Part shown: positions 40,190-56,363 of the stretch, one piece after another | Layout: every line of letters starts with the position of its first letter | Numbering within the stretch: position 1 is the stretch's first letter | NCBI RefSeq assembly: GCF_029210495.1 | Contig: NZ_JARGDK010000013.1 | Coordinates: forward strand, 1-64,000 | Source: Pseudothioclava nitratireducens | GTDB taxonomy: Bacteria > Pseudomonadota > Alphaproteobacteria > Rhodobacterales > Rhodobacteraceae | Length of the DNA: 64,000 nucleotides | Reading direction: 5' to 3' | Position numbers and translations under genes: made by a program | The notes under the pieces: model-generated | Databases searched by the model: none | What the model was told of the DNA's origin: nothing | What the model saw: the letters and a program-made list of their open reading frames with translations, nothing else

Positions 40190-40894
40190 ATGACAGTGGA
40201 ATTTATCCGCAATTTCGAGACTGCGGTCGCCCAACCTGTTTTTGTCCAAGATCGTAAATCGCGCGCTCAGAAAGCTCCTCCGACTGGTGGAATGATCAAG
40301 CGCATCATGGATATTACTTTGGTTGTTCTGGCCGTGCCATTTTTACTGCCGTTGATGCTCGGCCTATATATGCTTGTGAAATTAACAAGCCCCGGTCCGG
40401 CATTTTACGGGCATAGCCGCGTGGGCTTTGGCGGGCGTGAATTCAAATGCTGGAAATTCCGCTCGATGGTGCTCGATGGGGATGCCGTTCTCGAGGCGCA
40501 TTTCCGCAAGAACCCGGCCGACCGGATGATCTGGGAGAGCGAGCGCAAGCTGCGCCATGACCCGCGTGTGACCCCCGTTGGTGCCGTGCTGCGCAAGCTG
40601 TCGCTCGATGAACTGCCGCAGCTTTTCAATGTGATCACCGGCGAGATGAGCCTTGTCGGGCCGCGTCCGGTGGTGCGGGATGAGTTGGAGAAATACGCCG
40701 CCTCCGCCGGCCATTACATGCGCGCGCGTCCGGGTCTGACGGGACTTTGGCAGGTTTCTGGTCGCTCGGAAACCACCTACCGGTATCGTGTGAAACTTGA
40801 CCGTTTCTATGTGTCGCGCTGGAGCGCCCTGCTGGATATCTGGGTTATTCTGCGCACCATTCCTGCGGTCGTCTTCTCGCGCGGGGCGCATTGA
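40190..40894 (+). CDS. exoY: ExoY-type undecaprenyl-phosphate sugar phosphotransferase
   Basis: A 234-residue monotopic phosphoglycosyl transferase that puts the first sugar of the repeat unit on undecaprenyl phosphate. One hydrophobic segment (about 42-65) is followed by the catalytic domain with TSPGPAFYGHSRVGFGG, KFRSM, LSLDELPQLFNVITGEMSLVGPRP and RPGLTGLWQVSGRS. The C-terminus is typical. It overlaps the export gene by TTGA, indicating coupled translation. Confidence 0.95.
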   Translation: MTVEFIRNFETAVAQPVFVQDRKSRAQKAPPTGGMIKRIMDITLVVLAVPFLLPLMLGLYMLVKLTSPGPAFYGHSRVGFGGREFKCWKFRSMVLDGDAVLEAHFRKNPADRMIWESERKLRHDPRVTPVGAVLRKLSLDELPQLFNVITGEMSLVGPRPVVRDELEKYAASAGHYMRARPGLTGLWQVSGRSETTYRYRVKLDRFYVSRWSALLDIWVILRTIPAVVFSRGAH

Positions 40895-42102
40895 GTCGCG
40901 ATTTCGGTTTGGCGCGGGCAACCGCGCTGGCGATTGCGATCGCCGCCGGGCCTGTCCATGCTGGCCCGAGCGATATCCTGCCCTCGGATCAGTTGCGTCT
41001 GCGGGTGATGGAATGGCTTCCGCTTGAAGGTGAAATCAAGGATTGGTCAGCAATTGCAGATGCTTACACCGTTGCCGCCGATGGCACAGTAACCATTCCT
41101 TTTGTCGGCACGCTGCCCGCTGCGGGGCGCAGCACCGAAGCGCTTGCGCAGGAGATTTCCGAGGCGCTGTTTCAACGTTTCGCGCTGCCCGATTTGCCTG
41201 CGACGGCGGTTTCTCTGAATGCGCGCAGCCCGGTGATGATCACCGGCGAGATCCGGGCGCCGGGGGATGTGCCGTTCGAGGTCGGGATGACGGCGCGCCA
41301 TGCGATTGCGCGGGCGGGCGGCGTCGGTTTTGCCGGGGCTTTGGGGCCGCGCAGTCCCGAGGAGCGGCTGGAGGCCGAAACCCAACTGGCGATTCTGCGC
41401 GACCGTGAAGACGGGTTGATGCTTCGCGCCGCGCGGCTCCGGGCCGAGATTTCCGGGGCCGATCAGCTTGAACCCGAGGCGATGCGCGCGGGGGGGCGCG
41501 GCGAGACCTTGCGCCAGCAGGAGGAAGAGCTGCTGCGGCTTCACCGGGATCAGAATGCCCGCGAGATTGCGCTGATAGATGGGCGTCGAGATCTTCTGTC
41601 TAATGAAATCAATGCATTGGAGGCAAAAGTTCAGTCGCTCACACATCGCATGGAGCTTGCCGCGGATCAGAAGCAGGCGATGGAGAGCCTTGCGCAGCGG
41701 GGGCTGACGGTGAATGCGCGGCTGTTCGATGCCGAGCAGATGCTTGCCACGCTCGAGACGCAGTTGCTCGATACCCAAACGGCGATTTTGCGCGCGAAAC
41801 AGAACCTTGCGACGGCGGAAACCGACCGGTTGGAGCGGGTCGAGGGCCGGTCGGCATCGCTCTTGGTTTCGCTTCAGGAGACCGAGCAATCCCTGGCTGA
41901 AACCCGGAATCGACGGATCGCGCAGCAGCGCAGCGTGATGATGATGCAGGCGTCGGCGGGCGACTGGTCGAAGACGCTGGAGGTGACGATCCGGCGTATG
42001 ATGGCGGGGGATGTCGAGATCCTGACGGACGCACTCGACACGGCGCTTCTGCCCGGCGACCTCTTGGAGGTCACCCTGCGCAACCCGGAAGATCAGGGCT
42101 AA
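40891..42102 (+). CDS. exoF: ExoF-like polysaccharide export protein
   Basis: A 403-residue protein starting at a TTG that overlaps the exoY stop. A signal peptide (about residues 1-24, ending PVHA) is followed by a polysaccharide-export domain (DAYTVAADGTVTIPFVGTLPAAG), an SLBB-like segment (VMITGEIRAPGDVPF) and a long coiled coil (about 160-345). This matches the periplasmic ExoF of succinoglycan systems. It likely works with the exoP-like protein encoded at 50765. Convergent with the GT2 gene 5 bases away. Confidence 0.85.
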   Translation: MSRDFGLARATALAIAIAAGPVHAGPSDILPSDQLRLRVMEWLPLEGEIKDWSAIADAYTVAADGTVTIPFVGTLPAAGRSTEALAQEISEALFQRFALPDLPATAVSLNARSPVMITGEIRAPGDVPFEVGMTARHAIARAGGVGFAGALGPRSPEERLEAETQLAILRDREDGLMLRAARLRAEISGADQLEPEAMRAGGRGETLRQQEEELLRLHRDQNAREIALIDGRRDLLSNEINALEAKVQSLTHRMELAADQKQAMESLAQRGLTVNARLFDAEQMLATLETQLLDTQTAILRAKQNLATAETDRLERVEGRSASLLVSLQETEQSLAETRNRRIAQQRSVMMMQASAGDWSKTLEVTIRRMMAGDVEILTDALDTALLPGDLLEVTLRNPEDQG

Positions 42103-42107
42103 GCGAT

Positions 42108-43091
42108 TTATTCTATTGGTAAAAGGTAGCGCCGATCTGGCTGTGATGGTTGCTGTGCGCGGCGATGGCGCCCGAATTTGTCGCGGGCGATCCCTTTGGC
42201 GATGGGCAGAAAGTTCTGCGGCGGGGCGAGGGCAAAGAGCAGCGCGCGCAGCAGGCCCAAATCGCGCTTGCGATCCAGAAAGGCGCGCAGCAGGTAGCGA
42301 TCGCGCAGATGGTCGCGATGTGCCCGCATTGCATGTCGCTCGCTCGGGTGCAGGTCGCGCAACGCCCGATGCGTTTGCGTAGCGCGCAAGAGCGCCGCCA
42401 GATCGGCGGTGCGATGCTGCCCGCTCAGAGAATTCGATCGCACGCGGGCGGCATAGCCAAGCTGACGGCTCAACTGGAACCGCGCGCCTTTGGCAAGCAT
42501 GCGCACATAGAGATCGTAATCCTCTCCAAGCCAGAGCGCGGGGTCATAGCGCAACCCGTGGCGATCCAGAAAATCGCGCGAAATCAATGGCTTGAGGAAT
42601 CCCAACTCGCCCCGCGCAATGCCTGGCGCGGGAATGTTTCCGGCGATGAACTCTGCGAGGTCGAGCGCCTGAAAGGCGTGATCCGCCACGTCCGGCAATT
42701 CGGACGGGGTGACGATGCCGGGGCGCTCGTCAGGAACGAAGACGATGTTATCCGCGACCATGTCGAACGCGGGGGCTGTCAATAACGCGGCAAAGCGACC
42801 TGGCAGCAGGTAATCGTCGGCATCGAGAATTGCGAGAAACGGTGCGTTCGACGCGTCGATGGCGTGATTGCGGGCCCGCGCGGGGCCGATATTCTGCGTT
42901 TCCTGAAGAATGCGCAGCCTGTCATCGCCCTCTGCCGCGGATTTGGCGCGCGCGGCGGTGTCATCTTGTGACGCATCATCGACCAGCACCAGCTCGCTCA
43001 CTTCGGGTTCTGCCAGAGCCGAGCGCACCGCGTCCGCGATCGTCGCGGCGGCATTGCGCGCAGTGATGATGACGCAGACCGGTCCCGTCAT
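42108..43091 (-). CDS. Glycosyltransferase family 2 (ExoO-like)
   Basis: A 327-residue GT-A enzyme. VCVIITARNAAATIADAV, ELVLVDDASQDDT and the LDADDYLLPG metal site are clear. LGFLKPLISRDFLDRHGLRY and GEDYDLYVRML resemble the paralogue at 58786, and both recall ExoO-type enzymes. It begins inside the nucleotidyltransferase stop (ATGA overlap), so it belongs to that divergent lasso-side operon. It may therefore act on the lasso peptide or on the exopolysaccharide; sequence alone cannot decide. Confidence 0.88.
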   Translation of the reverse strand: MTGPVCVIITARNAAATIADAVRSALAEPEVSELVLVDDASQDDTAARAKSAAEGDDRLRILQETQNIGPARARNHAIDASNAPFLAILDADDYLLPGRFAALLTAPAFDMVADNIVFVPDERPGIVTPSELPDVADHAFQALDLAEFIAGNIPAPGIARGELGFLKPLISRDFLDRHGLRYDPALWLGEDYDLYVRMLAKGARFQLSRQLGYAARVRSNSLSGQHRTADLAALLRATQTHRALRDLHPSERHAMRAHRDHLRDRYLLRAFLDRKRDLGLLRALLFALAPPQNFLPIAKGIARDKFGRHRRAQQPSQPDRRYLLPIE

Positions 43092-44335
43092 CCGGCTGAC
43101 CCCTCGGAATTTGCCCGGCGGTTTTGCCTTTGCAGGGCGCCATGATACAGGATCGAAAGCGCGGAGCGCCCGGCTTCGCGCAGATAGCGCAGCGGTGAGG
43201 GTCCGCAGAGTGCCCAGAGCAGCCGCCGTCGCCGTGGCCAGGGCAGGCCGGGTTTCCACGGGGTGATCAACATCTCGCGCAAGCTCTGCGACGTCAAATC
43301 GGGTAAGGGTGAGGGGTGCCGGGCGAGCCGCGTTCCAAAGCAGGCATCCGCCGCGTGACGTGCGAAGCACAGGGTTTCCGCTAACCCATGCTGGGAGGCA
43401 TTTTCATAAATCAGATCAATGTCCTGCGGTTCGTTCTTTGCGTGAGACGCACGCAGATCGGCGAGGGCGCCAAGGCAGGGCTCATGCGCCAGAAACGCCT
43501 TGGCCACGCTGATCGCCGCGATCAACCCGCGATCGCCGGGCGACAACACGGGACAGGCTGCCCCCTGAAATGTCATGATCTCGCGGCGGTCGATGAATCC
43601 TTGCAGCGCGTGTGGGCGTGGCAGACCGGGTTGTTGCACCCCGTGATGGAGGTCGATCACGGTCCGGTCGCCGGGTCGGGTCAGATGCACCTCGCTCAGA
43701 AAACGCGACCACCAAGAGGCCATCGCCGCCTCGGTGGGGCGATATCCGAGCCGCTCAAGCACGGCGCGCGCGCGATGCCGATCGCGCGGGGCAACCAGCA
43801 GGTCGATATCGCCAGCAGGTTTGCGCAACGGGTCACCATACAGGGCGACCTGCTGCAACGGCCCCTTGAATTGCAGATGCGCAATGCCGGCCTCGGTGAG
43901 ATGTTGCGAAGCCTCGAACCCGGCACGCAGGGCGGCGTGATTGCCCATCATGACCCGCAAGCGCGTCTGCGCGATCCGCTGCGGCAGGGCGGCGCAGCTT
44001 GCGGGCCAGCTTTGCGGTTCTTCGGGCAGGAACAGGATGACCTTGTTCAGCCGGGCAATATGAAACACGAATTCAGGATCGATCCCGTCGGGCGGCGCTG
44101 ATGGCGGCGCGCCGAACCGCGCGCCGACCGCGTCCAGAACGACCTGTGCCTCGCGTTCGAACGATTGTCCCTCGAAGCGTCGAAACTGGGCGGGGTCAAA
44201 GGTCAATACCTGCTCTCCGTCTGGCCGCCGGACCTGCGGCTTCACGCCCCATAAAGGCAGAGACCCGCCGGGAGAATCAACCGTCTCGGCAACGAATCGC
44301 TCAGGGTGCGGAAAAATAATAAAATGCCTGCTCAA
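43088..44335 (-). CDS. Nucleotidyltransferase-family protein of lasso-peptide clusters
   Basis: A 415-residue protein of the uncharacterised nucleotidyltransferase family (NTP_transf_5 type). The signature is FKGP at 156-159, then LYGDPLRKPAGDIDLLV with the metal-binding Asp176 and Asp178. Relatives occur in lasso clusters with a kinase. In the pseudomycoidin pathway one is reported to elaborate the phosphorylated C-terminal Ser with hexoses. Here it is divergent from the precursor gene by 225 bases and coupled to a GT2 gene. Confidence 0.82.
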   Translation of the reverse strand: MSRHFIIFPHPERFVAETVDSPGGSLPLWGVKPQVRRPDGEQVLTFDPAQFRRFEGQSFEREAQVVLDAVGARFGAPPSAPPDGIDPEFVFHIARLNKVILFLPEEPQSWPASCAALPQRIAQTRLRVMMGNHAALRAGFEASQHLTEAGIAHLQFKGPLQQVALYGDPLRKPAGDIDLLVAPRDRHRARAVLERLGYRPTEAAMASWWSRFLSEVHLTRPGDRTVIDLHHGVQQPGLPRPHALQGFIDRREIMTFQGAACPVLSPGDRGLIAAISVAKAFLAHEPCLGALADLRASHAKNEPQDIDLIYENASQHGLAETLCFARHAADACFGTRLARHPSPLPDLTSQSLREMLITPWKPGLPWPRRRRLLWALCGPSPLRYLREAGRSALSILYHGALQRQNRRANSEGSAG

Positions 44336-44560
44336 AAAATGGTCGATATTTATTGAGCTGCGATTATCGCCTTCGCGATATTTTAGAATGGGACGCGATA
44401 TGTTGTGGTCGCTGTCTGTAAATATCTAGATTGGGCCGAAACCCCTAGCTTTTTAAGGTGTATTGATTGACTTGGCGTCACTTCCGCCGCACCCTGAAAC
44501 AGCGTGGTTCGTATTAATTTCGGGCCATTGCATAACGCAACTTGAGACGGGGAAGTTATT
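44336..44560. promoter_or_regulatory. Divergent promoter region of the lasso cassette
   Basis: This AT-rich 225-base region separates the nucleotidyltransferase operon (minus) and the lasso operon (plus). It has a 6-bp hairpin TATCGC-CTTC-GCGATA followed by TTTT (44365-44384), the octamer CGCGATAT at 44374 and 44394 (exactly 20 bases apart), a TATTAAT -10-like element at 44512 and a TTGC / GCAA dyad near 44527. I cannot assign exact promoters. Confidence 0.5.
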
Positions 44561-44704
44561 ATGAGCCTCAAGAAGACCTATGCCGCGCCGCGGCTGAGCG
44601 TTCACGGCAAGCTCGAAGATCTCACCCATGGTCAGACCTCGGGCAGCAAGCTCGACGCGGACTTTCCGGATGGGACGCCGTTTGGCGATCTGACCTTCTC
44701 GTAA
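44561..44704 (+). CDS. Lasso peptide precursor
   Basis: A 47-residue RiPP precursor. The leader MSLKKTYAAPRLSVHG carries the YxxPxLxxxG motif (Y7, P10, L12, G16) recognised by B1 proteins, and Thr22 is at the required -2 position. Predicted cleavage after His23 frees a 24-residue core with ring GQTSGSKLD (Gly24 amide to Asp32, a 9-residue macrolactam) and tail ADFPDGTPFGDLTFS. The tail ends in Ser47, the acceptor expected for the kinase encoded downstream. The start has GGGGAAG 6-8 bases upstream. Processing is inferred from family rules. Confidence 0.92.
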   Translation: MSLKKTYAAPRLSVHGKLEDLTHGQTSGSKLDADFPDGTPFGDLTFS

Positions 44705-44733
44705 AGAGAAGCCTCGAACGGGGCAATGATCGC

Positions 44734-44766
44734 GGCCGAAGCGGCCTTGTCGCTTCGGCCGGTTTT
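44734..44766 (+). terminator. Hairpin between precursor and processing genes
   Basis: A perfect 10-bp stem (GGCCGAAGCG / CGCTTCGGCC) with a 7-base loop is followed by GGTTTTAC. It probably acts as a partial terminator or 3'-end stabiliser that keeps precursor mRNA in excess over the enzyme mRNA. Confidence 0.65.
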
Positions 44767-44782
44767 ACTGCGGAGGGTGGTC

Positions 44783-45067
44783 ATGAACGCGATGATTGAT
44801 GAAAGCCGTTTTCGTCATGTCACCGATTGTGTGTCCTGCGCGTACGGGGAGGGGATCGCGATCCTTGACCTGCGCACGAACCTGTATTTCAGCCTTGACC
44901 CGGTGGGGGCACTCATTTGGGAAAAGCTGCAAAATCCCTGTTATCCACACGAGATCATCTCGGCTGTCGCGGCGGAGTATGAGATCGCGCCCGAGCAATG
45001 CGCCGATGATATCGCCGCGCTGCTGAGCGATCTGGAAAGCAATCATCTGATCGAGCCGGTGGAATGA
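44783..45067 (+). CDS. Lasso peptide recognition protein B1 (PqqD-like)
   Basis: A 94-residue PqqD-fold RiPP recognition element that binds the precursor leader and delivers it to the peptidase. The segment GEGIAILDLRTNLYFSLDPVGALIWEKL is the beta-strand and helix core of the fold. The start at 44783 has GGAGG 6 bases upstream, and the frame upstream to 44726 is ruled out by the hairpin. It overlaps B2 by ATGA. Confidence 0.93.
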   Translation: MNAMIDESRFRHVTDCVSCAYGEGIAILDLRTNLYFSLDPVGALIWEKLQNPCYPHEIISAVAAEYEIAPEQCADDIAALLSDLESNHLIEPVE

Positions 45068-45588
45068 CGGAATTGCGCCTGCGCTCCCGGCTTGCCCGGT
45101 TGTCGCGCCACGATCTGGCGCTGTTGTTGCGGGCCTTCGGGGTTTTGCTCTGGGTGCGGCTCAACCTGTTTCTGCATCGCACGCCGTATCTGCGGGGCAA
45201 GATTGCCCAACTGGCTGCGCGGGCACCGCTGGACCCGGCGCCAGCGGCTGCCGATCTGCGCGAAGTGGTCTGGTCGGTGCGCAATGCGGCCCGGTTCGTG
45301 CCGGTGGGGAGCTGTCTGACGCAAGCGCTTGCGGGGCAGTATTTGCTCGCTGCGCGGGGGGCTGAGACCACCGTGCGGCTGTCGATGCCAATTGCGGGGA
45401 CCGATCAGGCCCCGGCCTTCCGCCCCCATGCGTGGCTGATGTCGGGGCGCATGATCTTGCTCGGGGGTACGCCAGAAGAACTGGCGCGCCATCGCGCCCT
45501 GGTCGAATTTCACCCCGACCGTCCCGATGCCGGGGTGCCGGTTTCGTCTATCGGCGCGCCGTTCGGAACGGAGGCGCCCCCGTCATGA
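45064..45588 (+). CDS. Lasso leader peptidase B2 (transglutaminase-like)
   Basis: A 174-residue cysteine protease that removes the leader. The fold belongs to the Transglut_core3 group: Cys84 in VPVGSCLTQALAG and His122 in FRPHAWLM are the catalytic pair. I cannot place the third, acidic member with certainty. The Glu that often follows HAW in relatives is absent. Both ends overlap neighbours by ATGA. Confidence 0.92.
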   Translation: MTELRLRSRLARLSRHDLALLLRAFGVLLWVRLNLFLHRTPYLRGKIAQLAARAPLDPAPAAADLREVVWSVRNAARFVPVGSCLTQALAGQYLLAARGAETTVRLSMPIAGTDQAPAFRPHAWLMSGRMILLGGTPEELARHRALVEFHPDRPDAGVPVSSIGAPFGTEAPPS

Positions 45589-47489
45589 GTGGCTTCACCG
45601 GCTATCTTCACCACGGAGGGCATGGCGGGATGGCCGATGCCCTGTGTCGGGAGATGCTGGGACGCTGCGCGCATCGGGGACCGCACGGGCTTCATGTGCA
45701 TTGCGAGGGGGCTATGGCGCTTGGCCACGCCTGGCTCGACGCGACCGGGGATGGTCCGGGCCCGTGGCAATGGCGCGATTCCGGGCCGGTGCTGAGTGGC
45801 GATCTGAGCCTGACCAATGCGCGCGCGCTCTGCGCAGAGCTGGGCATCTCCGAGGTCAGTGACGGGGCGGCGATCCTGGCGGCCTATGACCGCTGGGGGC
45901 GCGATTGTCTGGCGCGGCTTGAGGGCGAATTCGCCTTTGTCTTGTGGGACCCGGAGCGGCGGCGGCTTCTGGGCGCGCGCGACCGCTTTGGCGTCAAGCC
46001 TTTCGTCTATCATGCTGCCCCGCGCGGTCTGGCCGCGGCCAGCGAGATCGGGCCGGTTCTGGCGGTGTTGGGCAGCGACCCGCAGCCCGATGAGCGTTGG
46101 ATCGCGGCTTATCTGTCGGGCTATGTGTTCGAGGCGCATCGCACCGCCTATCGCGGTGTCGAGCGTCTGCCGCCGGGGCATCTTTTGTGTCTTGAGGGGG
46201 ACCGGGTCACGATCGAGCCCTGGTGGGTGCTGGAACCCGACCGGGTGCCGGTCGCAGAGGCGCCCGAGGCGCTGCACGCGGCGCTGAGCGATGCGGTTTC
46301 GACGCGGATGCGGGGCGGTCCGGTCGGTTCGATGCTGAGCGGGGGGCTCGATTCCTCGACCGTGTCCTGTCTTGCGGCGCGCACGAGCGTGCGCCCGGTG
46401 CCCGCGCTGTCGCTGCGCTATTCGACGCGGCCCGAGTTGGACGAGGGGGCATTCATCGACGCGGTGCGCTCGGGCGAGAATCTGTTGCCTTGCGATATCG
46501 ACGTGACCCAATCGCTGGTGCTTGATGACATCGAAGGGATGCTCGCGCAGCAAGAACAGCCTTTCCTCGGCTATGGCTCTCCGATGATGCGGCACCTGCT
46601 TGATGCCGCACAGGCGCAGGGCTTGCGCGTGATCCTGAGCGGGCATGGCGGGGATGAGGTCATCGGCAAGGGCCAATGGCATTTCGCCGAGTTGGCGCGG
46701 CGCGGAAAATGGATGCAACTCTGGACACTTACGGGCCAGTTCGCCGCTTTTACCGAGGCGCGTCGCAGCGAAGAATTCAACCCGCTCCTGCGCCATTACG
46801 GGCCGCGCCCGTTGCGGGCGCTGCTGCGCAGGCTGGCGCCCGAGGCGACCAGCTTTGACCCCTATGAATGGCGCGCGCTGGTCAATTCCGAGTTCGCCGA
46901 GCGGGTCGATCTGGTGGCGATCGCACGCGCGGCGCGGCTGCCCGATAGCGCAGACGACCGCGACCCCGAGCTGACCGCGCATCTGAATCTGCTGCGTCCG
47001 ACCGATGTGGCGAGCGGCTTCGAGGTGCTCGACCGGGCGGCGGCGCATCGCGGACTGGAGCCGCGCTACCCGTTCTACGACCGCCATGTCGTAGCGCTCT
47101 GCGTCGGTCAGCCGTCGGCGGCCAAGATCGCGCAGGGGCGGCCCCGCTCTTTGCTGCGCGCGGCGATGCGCGACGTGTTGCCGGCGAGCGTGTGCAACCG
47201 GCACAGCAAGATGGATTTCACCCGCAATTTCTGGGCAGGGATGCGCGCCGATCCGACCGGGCAAATCGAGGGGTATCGTCACATGATCCCCGAGCGTCTT
47301 GCGCCCTATGTCGATGCGCAGACCCTGCATCAGGCCGCCGAGCGTGCGTTGAAGGCGCCCGAGCCGGACACCACAGCCTTGCGGCAGGTCTGGCGGGCGC
47401 TCTGGCTCGACAACTGGCTGGCCAGGCTGTCCAATAGCTCTCAGGCCACGCCCGTGCCGATGGCCCGACTGGCCGAGGGGGGCGCATGA
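45585..47489 (+). CDS. Lasso macrolactam synthetase C (asparagine-synthetase-like)
   Basis: A 634-residue cyclase that adenylates the Asp9 side chain and joins it to the Gly1 amine. The ATP-binding motif SGGLDSS is at 252-258, with SGHGGDEV further on. The N-terminus is MSGFTGY, so the Cys2 of true glutamine-using asparagine synthetases is missing, as usual in lasso cyclases. The start at 45585 overlaps the B2 stop (ATGA). The frame open from 45432 is out of place. Confidence 0.94.
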   Translation: MSGFTGYLHHGGHGGMADALCREMLGRCAHRGPHGLHVHCEGAMALGHAWLDATGDGPGPWQWRDSGPVLSGDLSLTNARALCAELGISEVSDGAAILAAYDRWGRDCLARLEGEFAFVLWDPERRRLLGARDRFGVKPFVYHAAPRGLAAASEIGPVLAVLGSDPQPDERWIAAYLSGYVFEAHRTAYRGVERLPPGHLLCLEGDRVTIEPWWVLEPDRVPVAEAPEALHAALSDAVSTRMRGGPVGSMLSGGLDSSTVSCLAARTSVRPVPALSLRYSTRPELDEGAFIDAVRSGENLLPCDIDVTQSLVLDDIEGMLAQQEQPFLGYGSPMMRHLLDAAQAQGLRVILSGHGGDEVIGKGQWHFAELARRGKWMQLWTLTGQFAAFTEARRSEEFNPLLRHYGPRPLRALLRRLAPEATSFDPYEWRALVNSEFAERVDLVAIARAARLPDSADDRDPELTAHLNLLRPTDVASGFEVLDRAAAHRGLEPRYPFYDRHVVALCVGQPSAAKIAQGRPRSLLRAAMRDVLPASVCNRHSKMDFTRNFWAGMRADPTGQIEGYRHMIPERLAPYVDAQTLHQAAERALKAPEPDTTALRQVWRALWLDNWLARLSNSSQATPVPMARLAEGGA

Positions 47490-48442
47490 AACCGACCGAT
47501 CCGAAATCCCTGACCGAGAGCGCGGCGGGCGTGTTCACCTATCGCAGCTATGGGCTGGTGATCCGGTCCGAGATCGTGCTGCCCGAATTCGACCCAGCGA
47601 CTCCGGGGGGCGCCCCGGTTCAGGTGGCGATCCGGCGTGGACCCGTCGCTTTGCCAGAGGGCGTGCGCGCGCTTGGGGCGTGGTTCGAGTTTTCGGACAG
47701 TGGTGTGCGCTTCTGGTGGCAGGCGGTCGGGGGCTTTGCGGTCTCGGCGGATGGCTCCGAGGTAACCGTCGAATACGGGGCGGGCGTATCGGACGACCTG
47801 ATCGCGTTTCCGCTGCTCGGTCCGGTGCTCTCCGAGGTTCTGCGTCGTCAGGGTTTGTTCGTGCTGCACGCCTCCTCGGTGGCATTCGAGGGGCAGGGCC
47901 TCGCGCTGATGGCGGATAAGGGCACCGGCAAATCGACCACCGCCACGGCGCTCTTGCGGGCGGGGGCACGGTTGCTTGCCGATGATCTGGTGGCGATCCG
48001 GCCCGATCAGAACAGCATCGTGCCGGGCTTCGGGCAGGTCAAACTCGCCGAGGAGGCGCTTACGCAACTGCCCGAAGGTTCGGCCGTTCCGCGCCCGCAT
48101 GTGCATGATCAGATCGACAAGATCCGGGTGCTGGTGCCGGGGCTGATGGCGCCCGAGCCGGTCCCGGCGCGACGGCTTTACGTGCTGGTGCGCGGGGGCG
48201 GGTCCGAGGCGCGGATCGAGCGGCCCGCCACGGGTGAGATGGTGCCGGCGCTCCTGCGTTTTGCCTATGCGGACCGGTTCGGGCGCGCGGGCCCACAGGG
48301 CGCGGAGGCGGCGCGCCAGTTCCGCGACGCGGTGGCCGTGGCGCGCCACAGTGCCGTGCGTCGGTTGATCCTGCCCGACGGGGTGACAGAGCTTGACAAG
48401 GTGATCGCGGCCATTCGGACCGATTTGGGAGAGGCGCCATGA
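47486..48442 (+). CDS. HPr-kinase-like lasso peptide kinase
   Basis: A 318-residue protein with an HprK C-terminal-like domain. The P-loop is DKGTGKST (144-151), preceded by LHASSVAF (His128) and followed by LLADDLVAIR, where Asp166-Asp167 match catalytic and metal residues. Homologues in the paeninodin family phosphorylate the C-terminal Ser of the precursor. The precursor here ends in Ser. There is no ptsH nearby, so carbon regulation is unlikely. ATGA overlaps on both sides. Confidence 0.88.
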   Translation: MKPTDPKSLTESAAGVFTYRSYGLVIRSEIVLPEFDPATPGGAPVQVAIRRGPVALPEGVRALGAWFEFSDSGVRFWWQAVGGFAVSADGSEVTVEYGAGVSDDLIAFPLLGPVLSEVLRRQGLFVLHASSVAFEGQGLALMADKGTGKSTTATALLRAGARLLADDLVAIRPDQNSIVPGFGQVKLAEEALTQLPEGSAVPRPHVHDQIDKIRVLVPGLMAPEPVPARRLYVLVRGGGSEARIERPATGEMVPALLRFAYADRFGRAGPQGAEAARQFRDAVAVARHSAVRRLILPDGVTELDKVIAAIRTDLGEAP

Positions 48443-50337
48443 GCACCGATCTCTCGCCCCAACCCGAAGAGCCGCTGAGCGCGCGCGAAGCCTTCCATGA
48501 TGTGCTGGGCGTGATCTCGGCGCTCAAGGATATGGGGCGGGTGAAATTCTGGCTGGCGCTCGGGGCGCTTACGCTGAGCAGCCTGACCGAAGGCGCATCG
48601 ATCGTGCTTTTGCTGCCGATCCTGCATATCATCGGGCAAAGCGATGCGGGGGTGCGTGCCATTGATCTGGGCGGGCGCGAGGTGCTGGGCCTCGCGCTGC
48701 CCGATGTGTCACTGGGCCTGCCGGTCCTGCTGAGCATGGTGGTCGGGCTGGTGGCGCTTCAGGCGCTGTTCAACCGGGTGAAATCGGGCTTTCTGACGGG
48801 GCTTCTCTACGATTTCACCAACCGCATCCGCCGCGAGCTGTTTCGCGCTGTGGCCGAGGCCCGCTGGGACCGCGTGAGCCGGTTTCGCGGCTCGGAGCTG
48901 GAACATGCGTTGACCGGCGAGATTGCCCGGATTCAGACCGTCTCGATGGTCACGCTGATGCTGTTGCAGGGGCTTTTGGGGATCGCGATCTATCTGGCGC
49001 TGAGCGTGGTGATCTCGATTCCGATGTCGCTGTTCTCGGTGGGGTTCGGGGTGCTGGCCTTCGTGCTGATGCGCCCCTTCCGGCGGCGCGCGGCACGGTT
49101 CGGGACGCTCATTCAGGCCAATCGCAAGCGGCAATATGCGACGGTTGCGGATTTTCTGGCGGGGCTGAAAAGCGCGCGCAGCATGAATGGCGAGGGCGTG
49201 CATGTCGCCTCTTTCGAGGGAATTCTCGATCAGGCGCGTGGCGATGCGCGGGAATATTCGCGCCATGCTGCAACCGGGGCGGGGCTGTTTCAGGTGGCTT
49301 TGGCGGCGGGGGCGGCACTGTTCATCTACCTGTCGCTGATATGGGCGGGGCTGGCGATTTCGCAAATCGTTGTGCTGTTGCTGATCCTGATGCGGCTCGC
49401 CCCGCGCTTCATGGGAGTGCAGGGGCAGATGCAGCAATTGCTGATCGACCTGCCGGCCTGGCGCGATGTGCACCGCTTGCGCGATCAGCTTGTCGCGGCC
49501 CGCGATGACAGCGCAAGCCGGATCGTGCCGATCGCGCCGCTGAGTGACGGGATCGTGCTGGAGGATGTGACCTATCGCTACGATGAAGGTCCGGATGCGC
49601 CCGCGGCGCTGGTGGGGTGCTCGCTTAGCATTCCGGCGGGGCAGGTGACGGCGCTGATCGGGGCGTCGGGGTCGGGCAAGAGCACGGTGGCCGATCTGGT
49701 GACGGGGCTGATCCGGCCGCAGGCGGGGCGGCTTTTGTTTGACGGGCGTGAGCTGGGACCCGAGGAGCTTGGCGGCTGGCGCGAACAGATCGCTTATGTG
49801 CCGCAGGACAGTTTCCTGCTCCATGAATCGATCCGGGTGAACCTGCGCGCGGTGGCGCCCGAGGCAACTGAAGCCGAGATGCGGGTGGCGATCCGTCAGG
49901 CGGCGGCGGAGTTCGTCGATGACCTGCCGCAGGGCCTCGATACCAAGGTGGGCGATCGCGGGGTGCTCTTGTCAGGCGGCCAGCGCCAGCGCATCGCGCT
50001 GGCCCGTGCGCTGTTGCGCAAGCCGCGTTTCCTCGTGCTCGATGAGGCGACCAGCGCGCTCGATTGGGCCAGTCAGGACCGGGTGGCCAAGGCGGTGCAG
50101 GCGCTTGGCGACGAGGTGACGGTGCTCACCATCGCGCACCGGCCCTCGATGGTGCGCTTTGCGAGCACGGTGTACACGCTTGAGGCGGGCCGCGTCGTGG
50201 AGGCGGGGCGGAGCGAGGATCTGTTGCGCAATGACGAGGGGCATCTGGCACGGATGATCCGTCATGAGGCAGGTGGCGGCACCCGTTCGGGCAGCCGGAC
50301 GGTCTTGCGCGTGCAAGGGGCAAGACTCGGAGCCTGA
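48439..50337 (+). CDS. Lasso peptide ABC exporter (fused membrane and ATPase domains)
   Basis: A 632-residue half-transporter. Residues 1-320 carry about six membrane spans. The nucleotide-binding domain has Walker A GASGSGKST (about 407-416), the signature LLSGGQRQRIALARALL (from about 508) and Walker B FLVLDEATSALD. It probably exports the mature lasso peptide and gives self-protection, like McjD-type proteins. It is the last gene of the operon and ends 23 bases from the convergent small membrane-protein gene. Confidence 0.93.
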   Translation: MSTDLSPQPEEPLSAREAFHDVLGVISALKDMGRVKFWLALGALTLSSLTEGASIVLLLPILHIIGQSDAGVRAIDLGGREVLGLALPDVSLGLPVLLSMVVGLVALQALFNRVKSGFLTGLLYDFTNRIRRELFRAVAEARWDRVSRFRGSELEHALTGEIARIQTVSMVTLMLLQGLLGIAIYLALSVVISIPMSLFSVGFGVLAFVLMRPFRRRAARFGTLIQANRKRQYATVADFLAGLKSARSMNGEGVHVASFEGILDQARGDAREYSRHAATGAGLFQVALAAGAALFIYLSLIWAGLAISQIVVLLLILMRLAPRFMGVQGQMQQLLIDLPAWRDVHRLRDQLVAARDDSASRIVPIAPLSDGIVLEDVTYRYDEGPDAPAALVGCSLSIPAGQVTALIGASGSGKSTVADLVTGLIRPQAGRLLFDGRELGPEELGGWREQIAYVPQDSFLLHESIRVNLRAVAPEATEAEMRVAIRQAAAEFVDDLPQGLDTKVGDRGVLLSGGQRQRIALARALLRKPRFLVLDEATSALDWASQDRVAKAVQALGDEVTVLTIAHRPSMVRFASTVYTLEAGRVVEAGRSEDLLRNDEGHLARMIRHEAGGGTRSGSRTVLRVQGARLGA

Positions 50338-50360: not shown

Positions 50361-50702
50361 TTAGCCGCGATGGGCGAGACCGTTTGCGACGGGCACGTCG
50401 GGTTTGCCCGAGGCTGCGGGTTCATCGTTGACGTATTCTGCGCCAAGCCCGCCCGAGCCACCGTTTTCGCGGCGTTTCGTTTCCGCGCGCACCATCACGA
50501 CAACCCATGCCAGATAGAGCATCTGCGCCGCAAAGGCCCCTGCCACCACAAGGAGCAGCGTGCCAAGCCAGCCAAGGCCAAGCGCGACACCTACCCCGAC
50601 GAGAGCGACGGAGAACAGACTCAACCCAGCGATGAAGGCCCGAAGATGCAAAGGCTCCCCCCTGTCAGCATCTAGCGCTGTTACGCAATCTTCACGCAAC
50701 AA
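50361..50702 (-). CDS. Small two-span membrane protein downstream of exoP
   Basis: A 113-residue protein. Two membrane spans lie in FIAGLSLFSVALVGVGVALG and the following LLLVVAGAFAAQMLYLAW, with a basic RAETKRREN segment after them. Its size and layout recall small repressors of exopolysaccharide synthesis (ExoX/SyrA type), but I cannot confirm homology. No ATG is available. The TTG at 50702 or the one at 50651 could be the start. It follows exoP after 62 bases. Confidence 0.55.
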   Translation of the reverse strand: MLREDCVTALDADRGEPLHLRAFIAGLSLFSVALVGVGVALGLGWLGTLLLVVAGAFAAQMLYLAWVVVMVRAETKRRENGGSGGLGAEYVNDEPAASGKPDVPVANGLAHRG

Positions 50703-50764: not shown

Positions 50765-53176
50765 TCACGATTTCGCGCGCCCGGAGCCATATATGTATTC
50801 GCTGTATTCGTCCAGATAGGCGCCTGCGCTTTCATCCGAGGCCCAGTCGCGCAGCTTGGTCATGTTGACCTTGTTGAGCACCACGCCCATCGTCTTTTGC
50901 GCCAGCGCCGGGTCGTTGGCGAGCACGCTGCGCAGCATGGCCTTGGGCGTCTTGCCCCATTCCGCGACCATCACGACATGGGTCAACTGGCGCAGCATGG
51001 TGCGCGCATCGACCACCGGCCCGATCGGGGCCAGATCGACGATGACGAAATCGTAATGCATCCGCACGTCGTCGAGGAAACTGCGCATCACGCGCGTGCC
51101 GAGCAGTTCCGAAGTGTGGCTGATCGTGTCGGGCGCGATACAGGGCAAGAGTTCGACGCCGGTATCGCTGATGTCGCGCAGCGCGTCGCGCCAGTCCGTC
51201 TTGCCCAGTAGCACTTCGATGAGGCCCGGACCGGTCTTGAGGCCCAGCCCGCGACTCAGGCCGGGCCGGCGCGGGTCGCCATCGATCAGCAGCACGCTCG
51301 CGCCTGAGGCCGCGATCATCCCGGCAAGGTTCAGCGAGACCGAGGATTTGCCTTCGCCGGGGCGCACCGAGGTCACGCCGATCACCCGGCGGCTGTCATC
51401 GGCGGCGGTGATTTCGGCGCTCAGGCGGATATTGCGCAGGGTCTCGGCATAGAGCGAGCGCATGTGATCGAGCGCATAGATCGAGCCTTTGACCACCGCG
51501 CGGCGCGGTGTGGTGGTGGCACGCTCGCTCATCGGCGGGTCAGTGCTCTCGCGCAGGCCGCGCGGGCCGGGCAACGGTTTCGCCCGCACCGGGCGATCGG
51601 TCGTCGAGAACAGCGGCAAGTAACCCAGAAACGCCTGCCGCAGATCCAGTTGTACATCCTCGGCGGTGCGAATGAAACGGTCGCGCCATTCGCGCAGCGC
51701 GCCGATCACCGCCCCGGTCATCAGCCCGAGCACGATCATCATCAGCAGCGTGCGCGTGGTGCTGGGACCGGCGGCGACGCGCGGAATATCGGCCAGCGAG
51801 AGCACCCGCACATTCGAGATCGGGAAGGTCTTTTGCTGGTCGATCTCCTGAAAGCGGGTCAGGAAGGTCTGGTGCAGCGCGGCCAGCGTGCTCGCACGGC
51901 TTTCGAGTGCGTTCAGCTCGATCTGCGCGGAACCGGCCTCGGCGTTTTCGTTGACGGCGTTTTGCAGCGTCCCGCGCAGCGCCTCGATCCGGGCCTCGGC
52001 CAGAATTTGCTCGCCGCGCGCCTCTTCGAGAAGCCGGGTCATGGCGGCATGAAGCCGCGCGGCGCTATCCTCGACGCGGGCCTCGAAGGCGCGCAACTGC
52101 GGATGGTCTGGGCCGAAATTCTCGCGGATGCGCTCGAGATTGACGATCGCGTCCGAGAGTTTGCGTTGCAGGTCCACGAAATCCGCGTCCCCGGTCGAGG
52201 CCACCCCCATCGGCACCCCGTCGCGCAGCGCATCGGGGCCGCGCTCGACGATGGCTTCATAGGATTTCACGCGGGCCTCCGCGCGGGCGGCCTCGGCGAT
52301 GGCGACGGTCAGATCGGCGTTCAGATTGGCGACGGCCTCTTCGGACATAAGCGAGCCGCGCGACGAGACCAGCCCGTTCTCCGAACGGAACCGGTCGGCG
52401 GCCACGGCGGCCGCGCGGGCCGAGGCCTCCAGCTCTTGCAAACGGCCCTGAAGCCATTGCGTCATCCGCTCGGTCGCCTCGTAATTGGCGTTCAGAACAT
52501 CCGCGACATAGGCTTCGGCATAGGCGTTCACGACGCTCGCGGCGATGACCGGGTCGTGCGAGCTATACCAGATTCCGAAAGCCGCGGAACGACCGATCCG
52601 TTCGACCCCGATCTGGCCTTGCAGAGCGCGGGCGACCATCGCCTTGCGCATCATGGCGATCTCTTCGGGGGTGGGCGGCGGCGGCGGTTCGACATTGGGG
52701 TCGATGACCGGCTCGGGCGCCGCGCGCAGCATGTCGATGGGTTTGCGCAGCAGCGCGCGTACGCTGCCGATGATATTGGCGATGGCCGAGCTTGGCGGGT
52801 TCAGAAAGCTGGGGTTCTGATCGAGGCGGAGGTCATCCACCACGGCGCGCGCGATCCCGTCCGAGGTGATGACGAGCTGCGCGCTGGCGATGCCGCTGTC
52901 GGACATGTTCACGTCATCGAGCTGGGTGATATCGGCGGCGGCGCGGCCGATATTGCTGTCGAGCATGACGGTCGAGCTGGCGAAATATTGCTTGGGGGTG
53001 GTCACCACGTAGAATACGCCAAAGCCGATCCAGAACAGCACCGAAAGCCCGATCGTCCAGCGCTGACGCCGGATTGCGGCGAGCACCCGCGAGAGGTCGA
53101 TCGTATCGAGCCCGCCATGCGCGGCCGGGTCCATCGAATTGCTGCTCTCGGCGATGCGGATACCGAATTGTCTCAT
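50765..53176 (-). CDS. exoP: Polysaccharide co-polymerase with tyrosine autokinase (ExoP/Wzc type)
   Basis: An 803-residue inner-membrane protein controlling chain length and export. A first membrane span (about 42-62), a long periplasmic Wzz/coiled-coil part and a second span (TLLMMIVLGLMTGAVIGAL) lead to the BY-kinase. Walker A is SVRPGEGKSS (from 603), A' is VLLIDGDPRRPG and B is DFVIVDLAPIG. The tail YLDEYSEYIYG is the tyrosine cluster for autophosphorylation. The start at 53176 shares an A with the upstream stop (TGATG) and has GGAG. Confidence 0.93.
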   Translation of the reverse strand: MRQFGIRIAESSNSMDPAAHGGLDTIDLSRVLAAIRRQRWTIGLSVLFWIGFGVFYVVTTPKQYFASSTVMLDSNIGRAAADITQLDDVNMSDSGIASAQLVITSDGIARAVVDDLRLDQNPSFLNPPSSAIANIIGSVRALLRKPIDMLRAAPEPVIDPNVEPPPPPTPEEIAMMRKAMVARALQGQIGVERIGRSAAFGIWYSSHDPVIAASVVNAYAEAYVADVLNANYEATERMTQWLQGRLQELEASARAAAVAADRFRSENGLVSSRGSLMSEEAVANLNADLTVAIAEAARAEARVKSYEAIVERGPDALRDGVPMGVASTGDADFVDLQRKLSDAIVNLERIRENFGPDHPQLRAFEARVEDSAARLHAAMTRLLEEARGEQILAEARIEALRGTLQNAVNENAEAGSAQIELNALESRASTLAALHQTFLTRFQEIDQQKTFPISNVRVLSLADIPRVAAGPSTTRTLLMMIVLGLMTGAVIGALREWRDRFIRTAEDVQLDLRQAFLGYLPLFSTTDRPVRAKPLPGPRGLRESTDPPMSERATTTPRRAVVKGSIYALDHMRSLYAETLRNIRLSAEITAADDSRRVIGVTSVRPGEGKSSVSLNLAGMIAASGASVLLIDGDPRRPGLSRGLGLKTGPGLIEVLLGKTDWRDALRDISDTGVELLPCIAPDTISHTSELLGTRVMRSFLDDVRMHYDFVIVDLAPIGPVVDARTMLRQLTHVVMVAEWGKTPKAMLRSVLANDPALAQKTMGVVLNKVNMTKLRDWASDESAGAYLDEYSEYIYGSGRAKS

Positions 53177-54144
53177 CAAGATCTCCGGGCTTCGGGTGTC
53201 TGTGGGGGACCATGCTGCGCGGCGGCGGCCTGCCCGTAAAGCGTGATCGCGCGCATCCCCAGCAGGGCGGCGATCACCCCGAGATGCAGGCTGGCGCGGG
53301 TCAGCGCGCTGTTGCGACGAAGCGGGTCGGGCAGGCCGATCAGCGCCAGACCGAGGCAGGCGAGCGCCTTGGCCCCGGCCAGCCCCGCCTGTGCGAGCCG
53401 ACCCGCCATCCCGCGCCCCTCGGCCAGCAGCGACCCATGCGTCTGGCCCATTCGAAAGCGCCGCCGCAAGAGCCAGCCAAGGCGTGCGCGCGCCTCGGGA
53501 ACCGTTTCGCGGGCAATGGCATCGGGGGCGTAGGCAATCCGCCCGCCCGCCTGCGAGAGCGCGGCGAAAAAGGCGGTGTCCTCCCCCCCCGAGCGCCCGC
53601 GCGCGGGATCGAAGCTCAGCCCGGCGCTGGCGGGATGGGCAAGGTCGATCAGGGTGTTGCAGGTATAGCCGGTCAGCGCCCAGCCGGCGCTGTCGCATTT
53701 CGGCTCCGTGTCGTGGACGCGGCCACGCTGCATCCAGCCGGGCGCTTGCGGCAGATAGGCGGCGCGCACCGGGCCGAGCACAGCGGCGGCGCGGGTCTGC
53801 TGCGCCTGCGCGTAGAGTTTCACGAGCCAATCCGGCGCGACGGTTTCGTCATCGTCGAGGAAGGCCAGAATGCCCGCGCCCTGTGCCCGCGCCGCGCTCA
53901 GGATCGCGTTGCGCGCCACCGAGATGTTATGCGCGGGCGCGTGCAGGTAGGTGACCGACATGGCAAAGCCCTCGGTGGCCTGCGCGACACGCGCGCGGGC
54001 CGAAGGGGTCTCGTCGTTGTCGGCGACGATGAGTGCGATCCGGGTGTCCTCTGGCACCTCCAGCCGCGCAAGCGAGGCCAGCGTGTCGCGGAGCGACTCT
54101 CGCCGATAGGTGCACAGACCGATGCAGATCAGTGTCGCCCCCAT
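53176..54144 (-). CDS. Glycosyltransferase family 2
   Basis: A 322-residue enzyme. LICIGLCTYRRESLRDTLASL and AFLDDDETVAPDWL (metal-binding acidic triplet) define the GT-A fold. GRSGGEDTAFFAALSQAGG is the acceptor-side acidic motif. A hydrophobic C-terminal stretch may touch the membrane. The start at 54144 has GAGGGG inside the end of the upstream gene. Part of the minus-strand exo operon. Confidence 0.9.
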   Translation of the reverse strand: MGATLICIGLCTYRRESLRDTLASLARLEVPEDTRIALIVADNDETPSARARVAQATEGFAMSVTYLHAPAHNISVARNAILSAARAQGAGILAFLDDDETVAPDWLVKLYAQAQQTRAAAVLGPVRAAYLPQAPGWMQRGRVHDTEPKCDSAGWALTGYTCNTLIDLAHPASAGLSFDPARGRSGGEDTAFFAALSQAGGRIAYAPDAIARETVPEARARLGWLLRRRFRMGQTHGSLLAEGRGMAGRLAQAGLAGAKALACLGLALIGLPDPLRRNSALTRASLHLGVIAALLGMRAITLYGQAAAAQHGPPQTPEARRS

Positions 54145-54146
54145 GC

Positions 54147-55115
54147 CTAACCCCTCTGCATCTTTTGCACGATGGTCTGGGCCCAGAAGCCTGCCGACCA
54201 CGCCAGATGCATCAGTCCCGCCAGAAAGCCCGACGCCAGACCGCGCAGGTCGCGCAGATGAAGCGCGATGACCGCGCCGCCCGCAAGGCAGGCCAGCGTC
54301 CACACAACCAGCGGCACCGCAAAGACGCCGCTCAGCGGCCACAGGATCGCCAGTGCCAGAAGGGGCGCCAGCGCCGCCACAGCCATCTGCCGCAGCGCAG
54401 GCCGCATCCGGTGCTTGGCGAGGTTGCGCGCGCGCCCCTTGCCGAACAGGAAATATTGCCGGAACAATGCGCCCAGCGTCGCGCGCGGGTAGTACTCGAT
54501 GGCGGTGCGCGCCGTGAGCCAGATCGAAAAGCCCGCCATCCGCAGACGGTGATCCAGCTCGGCATCCTCGTTATGGCTGAAGCTTTCGTCATAGCCGCCG
54601 ATTTGGCGAAACGGGGTGATCCGCATCAGCGCATGGTGGCCGTGATCGACCCAGGCACCCTCTCCGCGATTGCGATGCGAGGCCCCGCCATTGCCCAGCC
54701 GCGAGTTTTGCGCTGCGGCGATCAGCCGTTGCAGGGGCGTCTCGCCGACCGCGACCATCGAGACCGTGACGCTGTCGGCCTGCATCGCTTCGGCCTCGGC
54801 CAGAAGGATCGCGCAGTAATCGGCGGGGTAGCCCGAATGGGCGTCGATGCGGATCAGATACTCAGCCTCATCTCCGAATTGCTCGACGGCGAGATTGACG
54901 GCGGCGCTTTGCAAGCGGCGGGGGTTGTCGAGAAGGGTGATCTGCGGATGGGTCTCGGCCAGCTCCGCCACGATCCGCCGGGTCGCGTCGGTCGAGCCGC
55001 CATCCGCAACCACGATCCGCGCATCGTGATCCGCCGCGAAGGGCAGGACCGCGCGCAGTGTCGCGGCGATATGATGCTCTTCGTTGAGGGTGGGGATGAC
55101 GATGAGCACGCTCAT
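54147..55115 (-). CDS. exoA: ExoA-like membrane-bound glycosyltransferase family 2
   Basis: A 322-residue GT2 with cytoplasmic catalytic domain and three to four C-terminal spans. SVLIVIPTLNEEHHIAATL, IVVADGGSTDATR and YLIRIDAHSGYPADY are close to ExoA of succinoglycan synthesis, which adds the second sugar. The FRQYFLFGKGRARN segment supports this. The start overlaps the upstream stop by ATGA. Symbol by similarity and context; linkage unknown. Confidence 0.8.
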   Translation of the reverse strand: MSVLIVIPTLNEEHHIAATLRAVLPFAADHDARIVVADGGSTDATRRIVAELAETHPQITLLDNPRRLQSAAVNLAVEQFGDEAEYLIRIDAHSGYPADYCAILLAEAEAMQADSVTVSMVAVGETPLQRLIAAAQNSRLGNGGASHRNRGEGAWVDHGHHALMRITPFRQIGGYDESFSHNEDAELDHRLRMAGFSIWLTARTAIEYYPRATLGALFRQYFLFGKGRARNLAKHRMRPALRQMAVAALAPLLALAILWPLSGVFAVPLVVWTLACLAGGAVIALHLRDLRGLASGFLAGLMHLAWSAGFWAQTIVQKMQRG

Positions 55116-56278: not shown

Positions 56279-56363
56279 TCGTTTCTCCGGGTCGCGGCGC
56301 AGGGCGCTTGCGCGCAATCTAGGCTTCGCGCACTCAACCAATGTGACGAAGCTGCACGCTTTG

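Follow-up and report, generated by a model that had tools for sequence, protein, structure and literature searches.

In this study, a window of 64,000 nucleotides from Pseudothioclava nitratireducens (Rhodobacteraceae; assembly GCF_029210495.1, contig NZ_JARGDK010000013.1, positions 1 to 64,000) was analyzed. A divergent cassette for a lasso peptide lies at 42108-50337, between exoY-exoF and the Wzz/exoP operon of an exopolysaccharide locus. The following features were assigned:

40190-40894 (+), exoY-like phosphoglycosyl transferase (PF02397, 203 bits)
40891-42102 (+), exoF-like polysaccharide export protein (PF02563)
42108-43091 (-), GT2 glycosyltransferase (PF00535), probably a gene of the polysaccharide pathway
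43088-44335 (-), NT, nucleotidyltransferase (PF14907, 93.7 bits)
44336-44560, divergent intergenic region between NT and A, with presumed promoters
44561-44704 (+), lasso precursor A, 47 aa, with leader 44561-44629 and core 44630-44701
44783-45067 (+), B1, PqqD-like leader-recognition protein (RRE; 62.7 bits)
45064-45588 (+), B2, transglutaminase-like leader peptidase (NF033537, 54.6 bits, cut-off 33)
45585-47489 (+), C, asparagine-synthetase-like macrolactam cyclase
47486-48442 (+), K, HprK-like serine kinase
48439-50337 (+), D, ABC exporter (permease and ATPase)
50361-50702 (-), small membrane protein between exporter and Wzz
50765-53203 (-), Wzz/BY-kinase, exoP-like (PF02706, PF13614), start codon not fixed
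53176-55112 (-), two GT2 glycosyltransferases (GTa, GTb) of the polysaccharide operon, starts not fixed
56475-58543 (-), Wzy-like polymerase (PF04932) and GH16 glycanase (PF00722) of the polysaccharide locus

Gene set and sequence features of the cassette

A sequence-only reading had described an eight-gene bidirectional cassette at this place, and this observation was confirmed, since all eight genes were found at their positions. The junctions B1/B2, B2/C, C/K, K/D and NT/GT2 are ATGA overlaps. Some members scored below the cut-offs of specific models. C exceeds Pfam's cut-off for Asn_synthase but reaches 402 bits with the lasso cyclase model NF033535 (cut-off 525), the kinase reaches 29.3 bits with the HprK-like family (Pfam cut-off 33.3), and the precursor lies below the cut-offs of the lasso precursor models. 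The kinase also has a weak match to HprK-related kinase A (TIGR04352; 39.5 bits), far below the cut-off of 200.

The precursor carries the leader motif YxxPxLxxxG (YAAPRLSVHG), a Thr at position -2, and the core GQTSGSKLDADFPDGTPFGDLTFS with G1, D9 and a C-terminal Ser. In lasso peptides, the ring-closing acidic residue is at core position 7-9, and Asp9 fits this rule. Active-site residues were examined in alignments of the window sequence with a selection from the 64 named loci described below. NT residues K157, D176, D178 and D228 are invariant in 25 of 25 aligned rows, kinase residues H128, K149, D166 and D167 in 22 of 22, and B2 residues C84 and H122 in 14 of 14. The four kinase positions correspond to the His-Lys-Asp-Asp set of lasso kinases (PMC9266682), as matched by eye and not by alignment to PadeK or ThcoK. 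A structural model of the NT (pLDDT 87.7) gave generic NT-fold matches in the PDB.

No isopeptidase, TonB receptor, signal peptidase or second RRE was found among the 20 window genes between 34.1 and 58.5 kb that were compared with Pfam. Two of these genes (34935-36299 and 55112-56341) matched no family, and not every ORF of the stretch was included.

Recurrence and linkage to exopolysaccharide genes

To test whether the arrangement is a single insertion, related loci were compared, and it proved not to be a one-off. An NT divergent from the lasso operon recurs in 7 other genomes of the family as far as their contigs reach, each with a precursor of the same pattern; K and D were seen in 5 of 7, while the other two contigs end within C. 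One scan gave 64 named alphaproteobacterial loci with this NT, including six of those 7 genomes, and the six module genes were found together at 53 of the 64. Precursors were readable at 62 of the 64 loci. Of these, 61 end in Ser, 59 carry TPxx[DEQH][LIM][TL], and all 62 have Thr(-2) and Asp9. The precursors were found by the leader motif, so that of the leader features only the Thr is an independent count. The precursor of locus L131 ends in SN, and the tail of that of locus L119 lacks the motif.

At least two exopolysaccharide markers were present in the fetched stretch at 51 of the 64 named loci, against 0 of 15 other lasso loci of the family. With window proteins alone as queries, the counts were again 51 of 64 and 0 of 15, and 49 of 64 if GT2 is not counted. 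The linkage was seen in Rhodobacterales, Hyphomicrobiales and Caulobacterales, and exoY lies near the cassette in many relatives. However, 6 of 6 Sphingomonadaceae-type loci (Sphingomonas, Rhizorhabdus, Sphingobium) with the full cassette show none of the markers at the thresholds used (below threshold, GH16 in 5 and a GTc-like hit in 1), and Erythrobacteraceae-type loci show Wzz alone (4 of 5). The cassette can thus live without an exo locus of this type. Furthermore, PF14907 relatives without a detected B2 also sit in polysaccharide loci, so part of the linkage may belong to the NT family and not to the peptide.

Among 394 genomes of the family, nearly one per genus, this NT is present in 8. 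All 8 have exoF at 150 bits or more, against 4 of the 386 without the NT (hypergeometric 3.7e-14). This value ignores kinship, and the 150-bit line was set after the scores had been seen; at the limit of the search itself (E 1e-20), exoF is present in 33 of 394 genomes, 8 of them with the NT. In 4 of the 8 genomes exoF is not near the cassette, being on another contig in 3 and 114 kb away in the fourth (G221).

Comparison across related genomes for conserved exo loci without the cassette, as had been proposed beforehand, revealed such a case. In a relative, the sister locus L136 has the same locus with the NT-to-exporter module missing and GT2 kept. GT2 is therefore probably a polysaccharide gene, and, as it adjoins NT in 4 of the 7 family genomes, the lasso module proper is NT plus A-B1-B2-C-K-D. 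In this respect the sequence-only reading, which had included GT2 in the cassette, was corrected. A small protein weakly similar (20 bits) to that at 50361-50702 lies at the same place in L136.

Over 29 Hyphomicrobiales loci, pN/pS of the precursor gene was 0.22 for the core and 0.05 for the leader. The core value is higher than those of exoY (0.11) and exoF (0.20), and these values were compared without a formal test. In a Mesorhizobium genus, the NT is present in 104 of 146 genomes.

Interpretation and related systems

The sequence-only reading had assigned the genes to the paeninodin/pseudomycoidin arrangement and had guessed a link to biofilm or surface polysaccharide that it could not prove. 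This interpretation is supported. The assignment holds on the features that sequence can test, namely leader motif, Thr(-2), G1/D9, C-terminal Ser, the kinase residues, the NT with three conserved Asp, and the split B. The link to polysaccharide now has comparative support from the linkage in three orders, the co-occurrence with exoF and the cassette-free sister locus, although it remains inferred.

We consider a dedicated lasso-peptide module of an exopolysaccharide locus the best explanation (probability about 0.6). In this view, B1 would bind the leader, B2 would cut after Thr(-2)-His(-1), and C would join Gly1 to the side chain of Asp9. K would then phosphorylate the C-terminal Ser24 once or more, NT would put a sugar or sugar-phosphate on that phosphate, as PsmN is reported to do with hexose for pseudomycoidin, and D would export the product. 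Outside the cell, the peptide would act together with the polysaccharide whose genes surround it, as matrix partner, assembly modulator or co-secreted signal, and not as an arms-race bacteriocin. The gene set, the active-site residues, the conserved core, the linkage and co-occurrence, and the low pN/pS are established by sequence, whereas every chemical step, including threading, phosphorylation and export, and the function itself are inferred without expression, mass or mutant data. That a lasso peptide is made is very likely and its C-terminal phosphorylation likely, an NT-dependent sugar is only slightly more likely than not, and a functional tie to the polysaccharide is probable.

Several known systems are close. 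Paeninodin of Paenibacillus dendritiformis and the ThcoK/SyanK-type phosphorylated lasso peptides share B1/B2, cyclase C, an HprK-like kinase with His-Lys-Asp-Asp and a C-terminal Ser as phosphate acceptor (PMC9266682); here, an NT is also present and the cluster is inside an exopolysaccharide locus. The core tail of the peptide described here is conserved over several orders. Pseudomycoidin of Bacillus pseudomycoides shares, in gene content, the kinase plus nucleotidyltransferase, and PsmN is reported to add one or two hexoses to the phosphorylated C-terminal Ser (PMC9266682, PMC8498205). The present cluster has a divergent NT operon coupled to a GT2, is alphaproteobacterial and is linked to exopolysaccharide genes. 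In Bacilli, paeninodin-like and linear polyphosphorylated peptide (LPP) clusters with kinase, NTP transferase and MsbA-like exporter embedded in capsule loci were reported in 2026, with lasso and exopolysaccharide genes up-regulated together (Nat Commun 2026, PMC13381572). In contrast to those clusters, no signal peptidase or second RRE was found among the window genes compared with Pfam. LPP precursors have highly variable C termini, whereas the core described here is conserved. The words Alphaproteobacteria and Proteobacteria do not occur in the main text of that paper, and our literature searches found no alphaproteobacterial report. The isopeptidase/TonB-type proteobacterial clusters (astexins, caulosegnins) include alphaproteobacterial lasso peptides, some from genera also seen here (Asticcacaulis), but the present cluster has an ABC exporter, kinase and NT instead, with no isopeptidase or TonB receptor among the 20 window genes compared with Pfam.

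The biological roles of paeninodins are stated to be unknown (PMC13381572). A lineage keeping a nearly unchanged core next to exopolysaccharide genes in Alphaproteobacteria makes this question directly accessible to gene deletion in cultured strains. In rhizobia, exopolysaccharide is perceived by the host plant, so a peptide partner of it would matter for symbiosis and biofilm biology. The system also offers NT-type enzymes a defined, so far predicted, peptide substrate.

Alternative explanations

An ordinary narrow-spectrum antimicrobial lasso peptide, whose genes happen to have been captured in a polysaccharide locus, is unlikely but possible. Polysaccharide loci are variable hot spots and a common site of gene exchange, the cassette is absent from similar loci (L136, and loci L132 and L133 of genome G092), the Sphingomonadaceae-type cassettes show no exo linkage, and a complete locus is on a plasmid. 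On the other hand, the core is conserved across orders with a pN/pS of 0.22 in the 29 Hyphomicrobiales loci, where bacteriocin cores would be expected to diversify. Kinases cluster by order, so transfer between orders is not recent, and all 8 family genomes with the NT have exoF of this type. We regard it as similarly doubtful that the genes are linked because K and NT act on polysaccharide precursors or EPS proteins, with the peptide being a regulator or signal of exopolysaccharide synthesis and its own modification secondary. PF14907 relatives without a detected B2 lie in loci with exoY and Wzz (L186, L188, L189, L198, L200, L201, L203, L204), weak K and B1 relatives occur beside one with exoY (L185), and the weak match to HprK-related kinase A points in this direction. 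Against it, the kinase keeps the residue set of lasso kinases, and the precursor keeps the C-terminal Ser in 61 of 62 cases, even where the tail is extended, as in the Erythrobacteraceae-type loci.

A branched-cyclic or linear phosphopeptide instead of a threaded lasso is least likely of these. Threading cannot be read from sequence, and linear polyphosphorylated peptides with a similar kinase, NTP transferase and exporter set are reported in Bacilli (PMC13381572). However, B2 and C are present here and at most relatives, and Asp9 is in 62 of 62 precursors. The linear family lacks C and has an archaeal-type signal peptidase, which was not found among the 20 window genes compared with Pfam. A further reading, speculative and improbable on present evidence but not excluded, is that the phosphorylated C-terminal Ser is an acceptor for sugar-phosphate transfer by the NT and that the peptide becomes covalently joined to the exopolysaccharide as a primer, cap or surface anchor. 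The product would then be a peptide-glycan conjugate with a knotted protein end. FKRP, a sugar-phosphate transferase, is among the weak fold matches of the NT model.

Gene content of the cassette and its flanks

Inspection of the open reading frames and the sequence, together with Pfam and NCBIfam scans, confirmed the eight genes described in the sequence-only reading, and its observation held. The nucleotidyltransferase (NT) runs into the GT2 gene with an ATGA overlap, and after 225 bp the precursor gene A follows in divergent orientation, succeeded by B1, B2, C, kinase (K) and exporter (D) with ATGA overlaps from B1 to D. Genes exoY and exoF lie upstream, whereas Wzz/BY-kinase, two GT2, Wzy and GH16 lie downstream. 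B2 passes the curated lasso B2 model, while C passes the Asn_synthase cut-off of Pfam but not that of the lasso cyclase model, and K and A are recognised below the cut-offs of their models. The features with coordinates are as follows:

34102-35127 (-), sulfotransferase gene at one edge of the polysaccharide locus
36368-37057 (+), second sulfotransferase gene at the same edge
37062-38557 (-), Wzx-type flippase gene, split between two frames
38069-38126, 29-bp imperfect tandem duplication at which the flippase gene is split
42108-43091 (-), GT2
43088-44335 (-), NT
44561-44704, precursor A, divergent from NT

The two sulfotransferase genes hint at a sulfated polysaccharide. The split of the flippase gene may reflect a pseudogene, phase variation or an assembly error.

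Distribution and linkage in related genomes

In the family, PF13471 (B2) was found in 36 of 394 genomes, which represent nearly one per genus. Of the 36 matches besides the window's own, 29 were retrieved, and seven weak or cut ones (in genomes G366, G253, G213, G216, G162, G208 and G058) were dropped. Seven of the stretches carry NT divergent from the lasso operon. K and D are seen in 5 of these 7, the other two contigs ending within C, and each has a precursor of the same pattern. NT was found in 8 of 394 genomes, the same eight with the window, although the match in genome G018 reads past one stop codon. A match to exoF at 150 bits or more was present in 12 of 394 genomes, namely all 8 of these and 4 others (G092, G166, G385 and G288). 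The hypergeometric chance is 3.7e-14, a value which ignores kinship and rests on a line set after the scores had been seen; at E 1e-20 or less, exoF is in 33 of 394 genomes, the 8 among them. exoF lies near the cassette in 4 of 8 genomes (window, G018, G051 and G091). In 3 genomes it is on another contig of a fragmented assembly, and in G221 it is 114 kb away, although other exo genes adjoin the cassette there. The only congener searched, G001, has neither the B2, nor the NT, nor exoF at that limit.

The comparison of the locus across related genomes, proposed in the sequence-only reading, revealed a cassette-free sister locus. G288 (99% complete) has, in locus L136, the order exoY-exoF-Wzy-GH16-GTc-GT2-small protein-Wzz-GTa-GTb-GT4 as in the cassette-bearing locus of G051, but without NT and A to D between GT2 and the small protein, and it gave no match in the B2 or NT searches. 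G092 has a related locus in which no GT2 of this type was seen in the 29 kb examined. The order in the window differs in that Wzy and GH16 lie beyond the Wzz operon. Thus, the cassette is a removable module of a conserved locus, and on present evidence GT2 belongs with the polysaccharide. The inclusion of GT2 in the lasso module was rejected for now, since it stays in L136, adjoins NT in only 4 of 7 family relatives and is not seen beside NT in the Sphingomonadales loci.

One scan of genome contigs with the NT alignment gave 64 named loci in Rhodobacterales (Cereibacter, Thioclava, Luteovulum, Paracoccus, Pseudaestuariivita, Pseudoroseicyclus and MAGs), Hyphomicrobiales (nearly all Mesorhizobium), Sphingomonadales and Caulobacterales; six of the seven family genomes are among them. 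As the scan used one NT peptide pattern, relatives without it are missed, and the grouping of MAG loci (such as L092 and L095) into orders is ours. The six module genes passed our thresholds in 53 of 64 loci, and the other 11 appear to be cut by contig ends or by the retrieved stretch. L076 and L095 have no B1 in the retrieved stretch and gave no precursor.

At least two polysaccharide markers lie in the retrieved stretch in 14 of 15 Rhodobacterales, 32 of 32 Hyphomicrobiales, 5 of 6 Caulobacterales-type, 0 of 6 Sphingomonadaceae-type and 0 of 5 other Sphingomonadales loci, the last with Wzz alone in 4. Of 15 control lasso loci of the family, 0 have two markers and 3 have Wzz alone. The marker models were built partly from the named loci themselves, which favours those loci over the controls. 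With window proteins alone as queries, the count is the same, 51 of 64, and among the 15 controls only locus L034 has one marker, Wzz. GT2 and GH16 count as markers; without GT2, or without both, the count is 49 of 64. Locus L050, with Wzz and a weak exoY, failed our definition of a lasso control locus and is not among the 15.

A Paracoccus plasmid of 41.8 kb (L212, NZ_CP067230.1) is devoted largely to polysaccharide genes and one exopolysaccharide-lasso locus, in which a 138-bp gene at the place of the precursor is annotated as a hypothetical protein. In the genus of the genome carrying locus L098 (Mesorhizobium), 104 of 146 genomes searched have the NT at E 1e-60 or less, a count which refers to the presence of NT and not to its linkage.

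Precursor core and predicted enzymes

Precursor A reads MSLKKTYAAPRLSVHGKLEDLTH followed by GQTSGSKLDADFPDGTPFGDLTFS, the cut being placed by the usual Thr at position -2 (PMC10368454). This gives Gly1 and Asp9 for the ring and Ser24 at the end, and the computed monoisotopic mass of the lasso is 2441.10 Da; with an added phosphate it would be 2521.07 Da, and with phosphate and hexose 2683.12 Da. Of 62 readable precursors at the named loci (52 found at first and 10 more with a relaxed motif), 61 end in Ser, 54 end in TFS, 59 match TPxx[DEQH][LIM][TL], and 62 have Thr(-2) with Asp9. In Erythrobacteraceae-type precursors (loci L120, L122, L125, L126 and L129), the tail is extended (for example DLTCGPEDGMS) and still ends in Ser, which separates the Ser from the rest of the motif. 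These precursors carry one Cys in the ring and one in the tail, suggesting a disulfide-bearing variant. In 20 other lasso-like loci, candidate precursors were found at 9, some of them probably by chance, and they do not share the whole tail; that of L034 ends in VFS.

For 29 Hyphomicrobiales loci (28 for exoY and exoF), with L095, L112 and L127 left out (the precursor of L127 contains an X), pN/pS is 0.05 in the leader and 0.22 in the core. The other module genes lie at 0.19-0.29, GT2 at 0.14, exoY at 0.11 and exoF at 0.20. Although these values come without a formal test, they speak for a fixed partner and against arms-race diversification.

Residues that fit active enzymes are invariant in the rows aligned, namely K157, D176, D178 and D228 in NT (25 rows), H128, K149, D166 and D167 in the kinase (22 rows), and C84 and H122 in B2 (14 rows). 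A sequence search for solved structures gave no relative of the NT (one match at E 0.93). The predicted NT model (pLDDT 87.7) gave only generic NT-fold matches in a fold search (MenT1 and LnuA at E 0.001 or less, 4 rows; ANT(2'') and FKRP at about 0.003-0.01), which are too unspecific to decide what NT transfers. Among solved structures, the kinase matches only HPr kinases (4 sequences).

The kinase tree comprised 40 rows, of them 29 of the 64 named loci and 10 controls, with 20 of 37 inner branches starred. The cassette kinases, together with the divergent L034, stand apart from the other lasso kinases (98/91), Rhodobacterales form one group (93/98), and the other groups need 2 changes. L034, from genome G048, represents a divergent sister cassette with its kinase in the same clade, a precursor ending in PVPFDVFS and Wzz nearby, but no NT over 30 bits (26 bits in a further search).

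Inferred function and reported clusters

A recent one-off insertion was considered as the first alternative and was rejected, since seven other family genomes carry NT divergent from the lasso operon, 64 named loci carry the NT, and the kinases cluster by order. In the reading we favour, B1, B2 and C would make the lasso, K would phosphorylate Ser24, NT would add sugar to the phosphate by analogy with PsmN (PMC9266682, PMC8498205), and D would export the product. The gene set, the linkage, the conserved core and the invariant residues are shown by the sequence analyses, whereas the individual chemical steps, the export and the role beside the polysaccharide are inferred, the last from conserved linkage. 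We prefer a matrix or assembly partner over an antibiotic.

The inferred chemistry is that of paeninodin and pseudomycoidin. The assignment made in the sequence-only reading is supported as far as sequence can show, and the link to surface polysaccharide which it inferred has comparative support from the conserved linkage. Clusters of this type in capsule loci of Bacilli, up-regulated together with an exopolysaccharide gene, were reported in May 2026, with the role left open and biofilm named as speculation (PMC13381572). Searches of open-licence papers for a link between lasso peptides and exopolysaccharide gave this Bacilli paper but no alphaproteobacterial report. The Bacilli paper speaks of selection-driven horizontal transfer, while the alphaproteobacterial lineage analysed here looks conserved and constrained instead.

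A class-wide sample of 367 genomes was searched for NT, which yielded 44 genomes with NT relatives, all except the window's own at or below 89 bits, and 40 of the 44 matches besides the window's own were retrieved. This sample does not measure the frequency of the cassette, but it showed that NT relatives without a detected B2 also lie in polysaccharide loci. Eight loci with such PF14907 relatives (L186, L188, L189, L198, L200, L201, L203 and L204) contain exoY and Wzz, so this enzyme family may have a wider role in polysaccharide loci.
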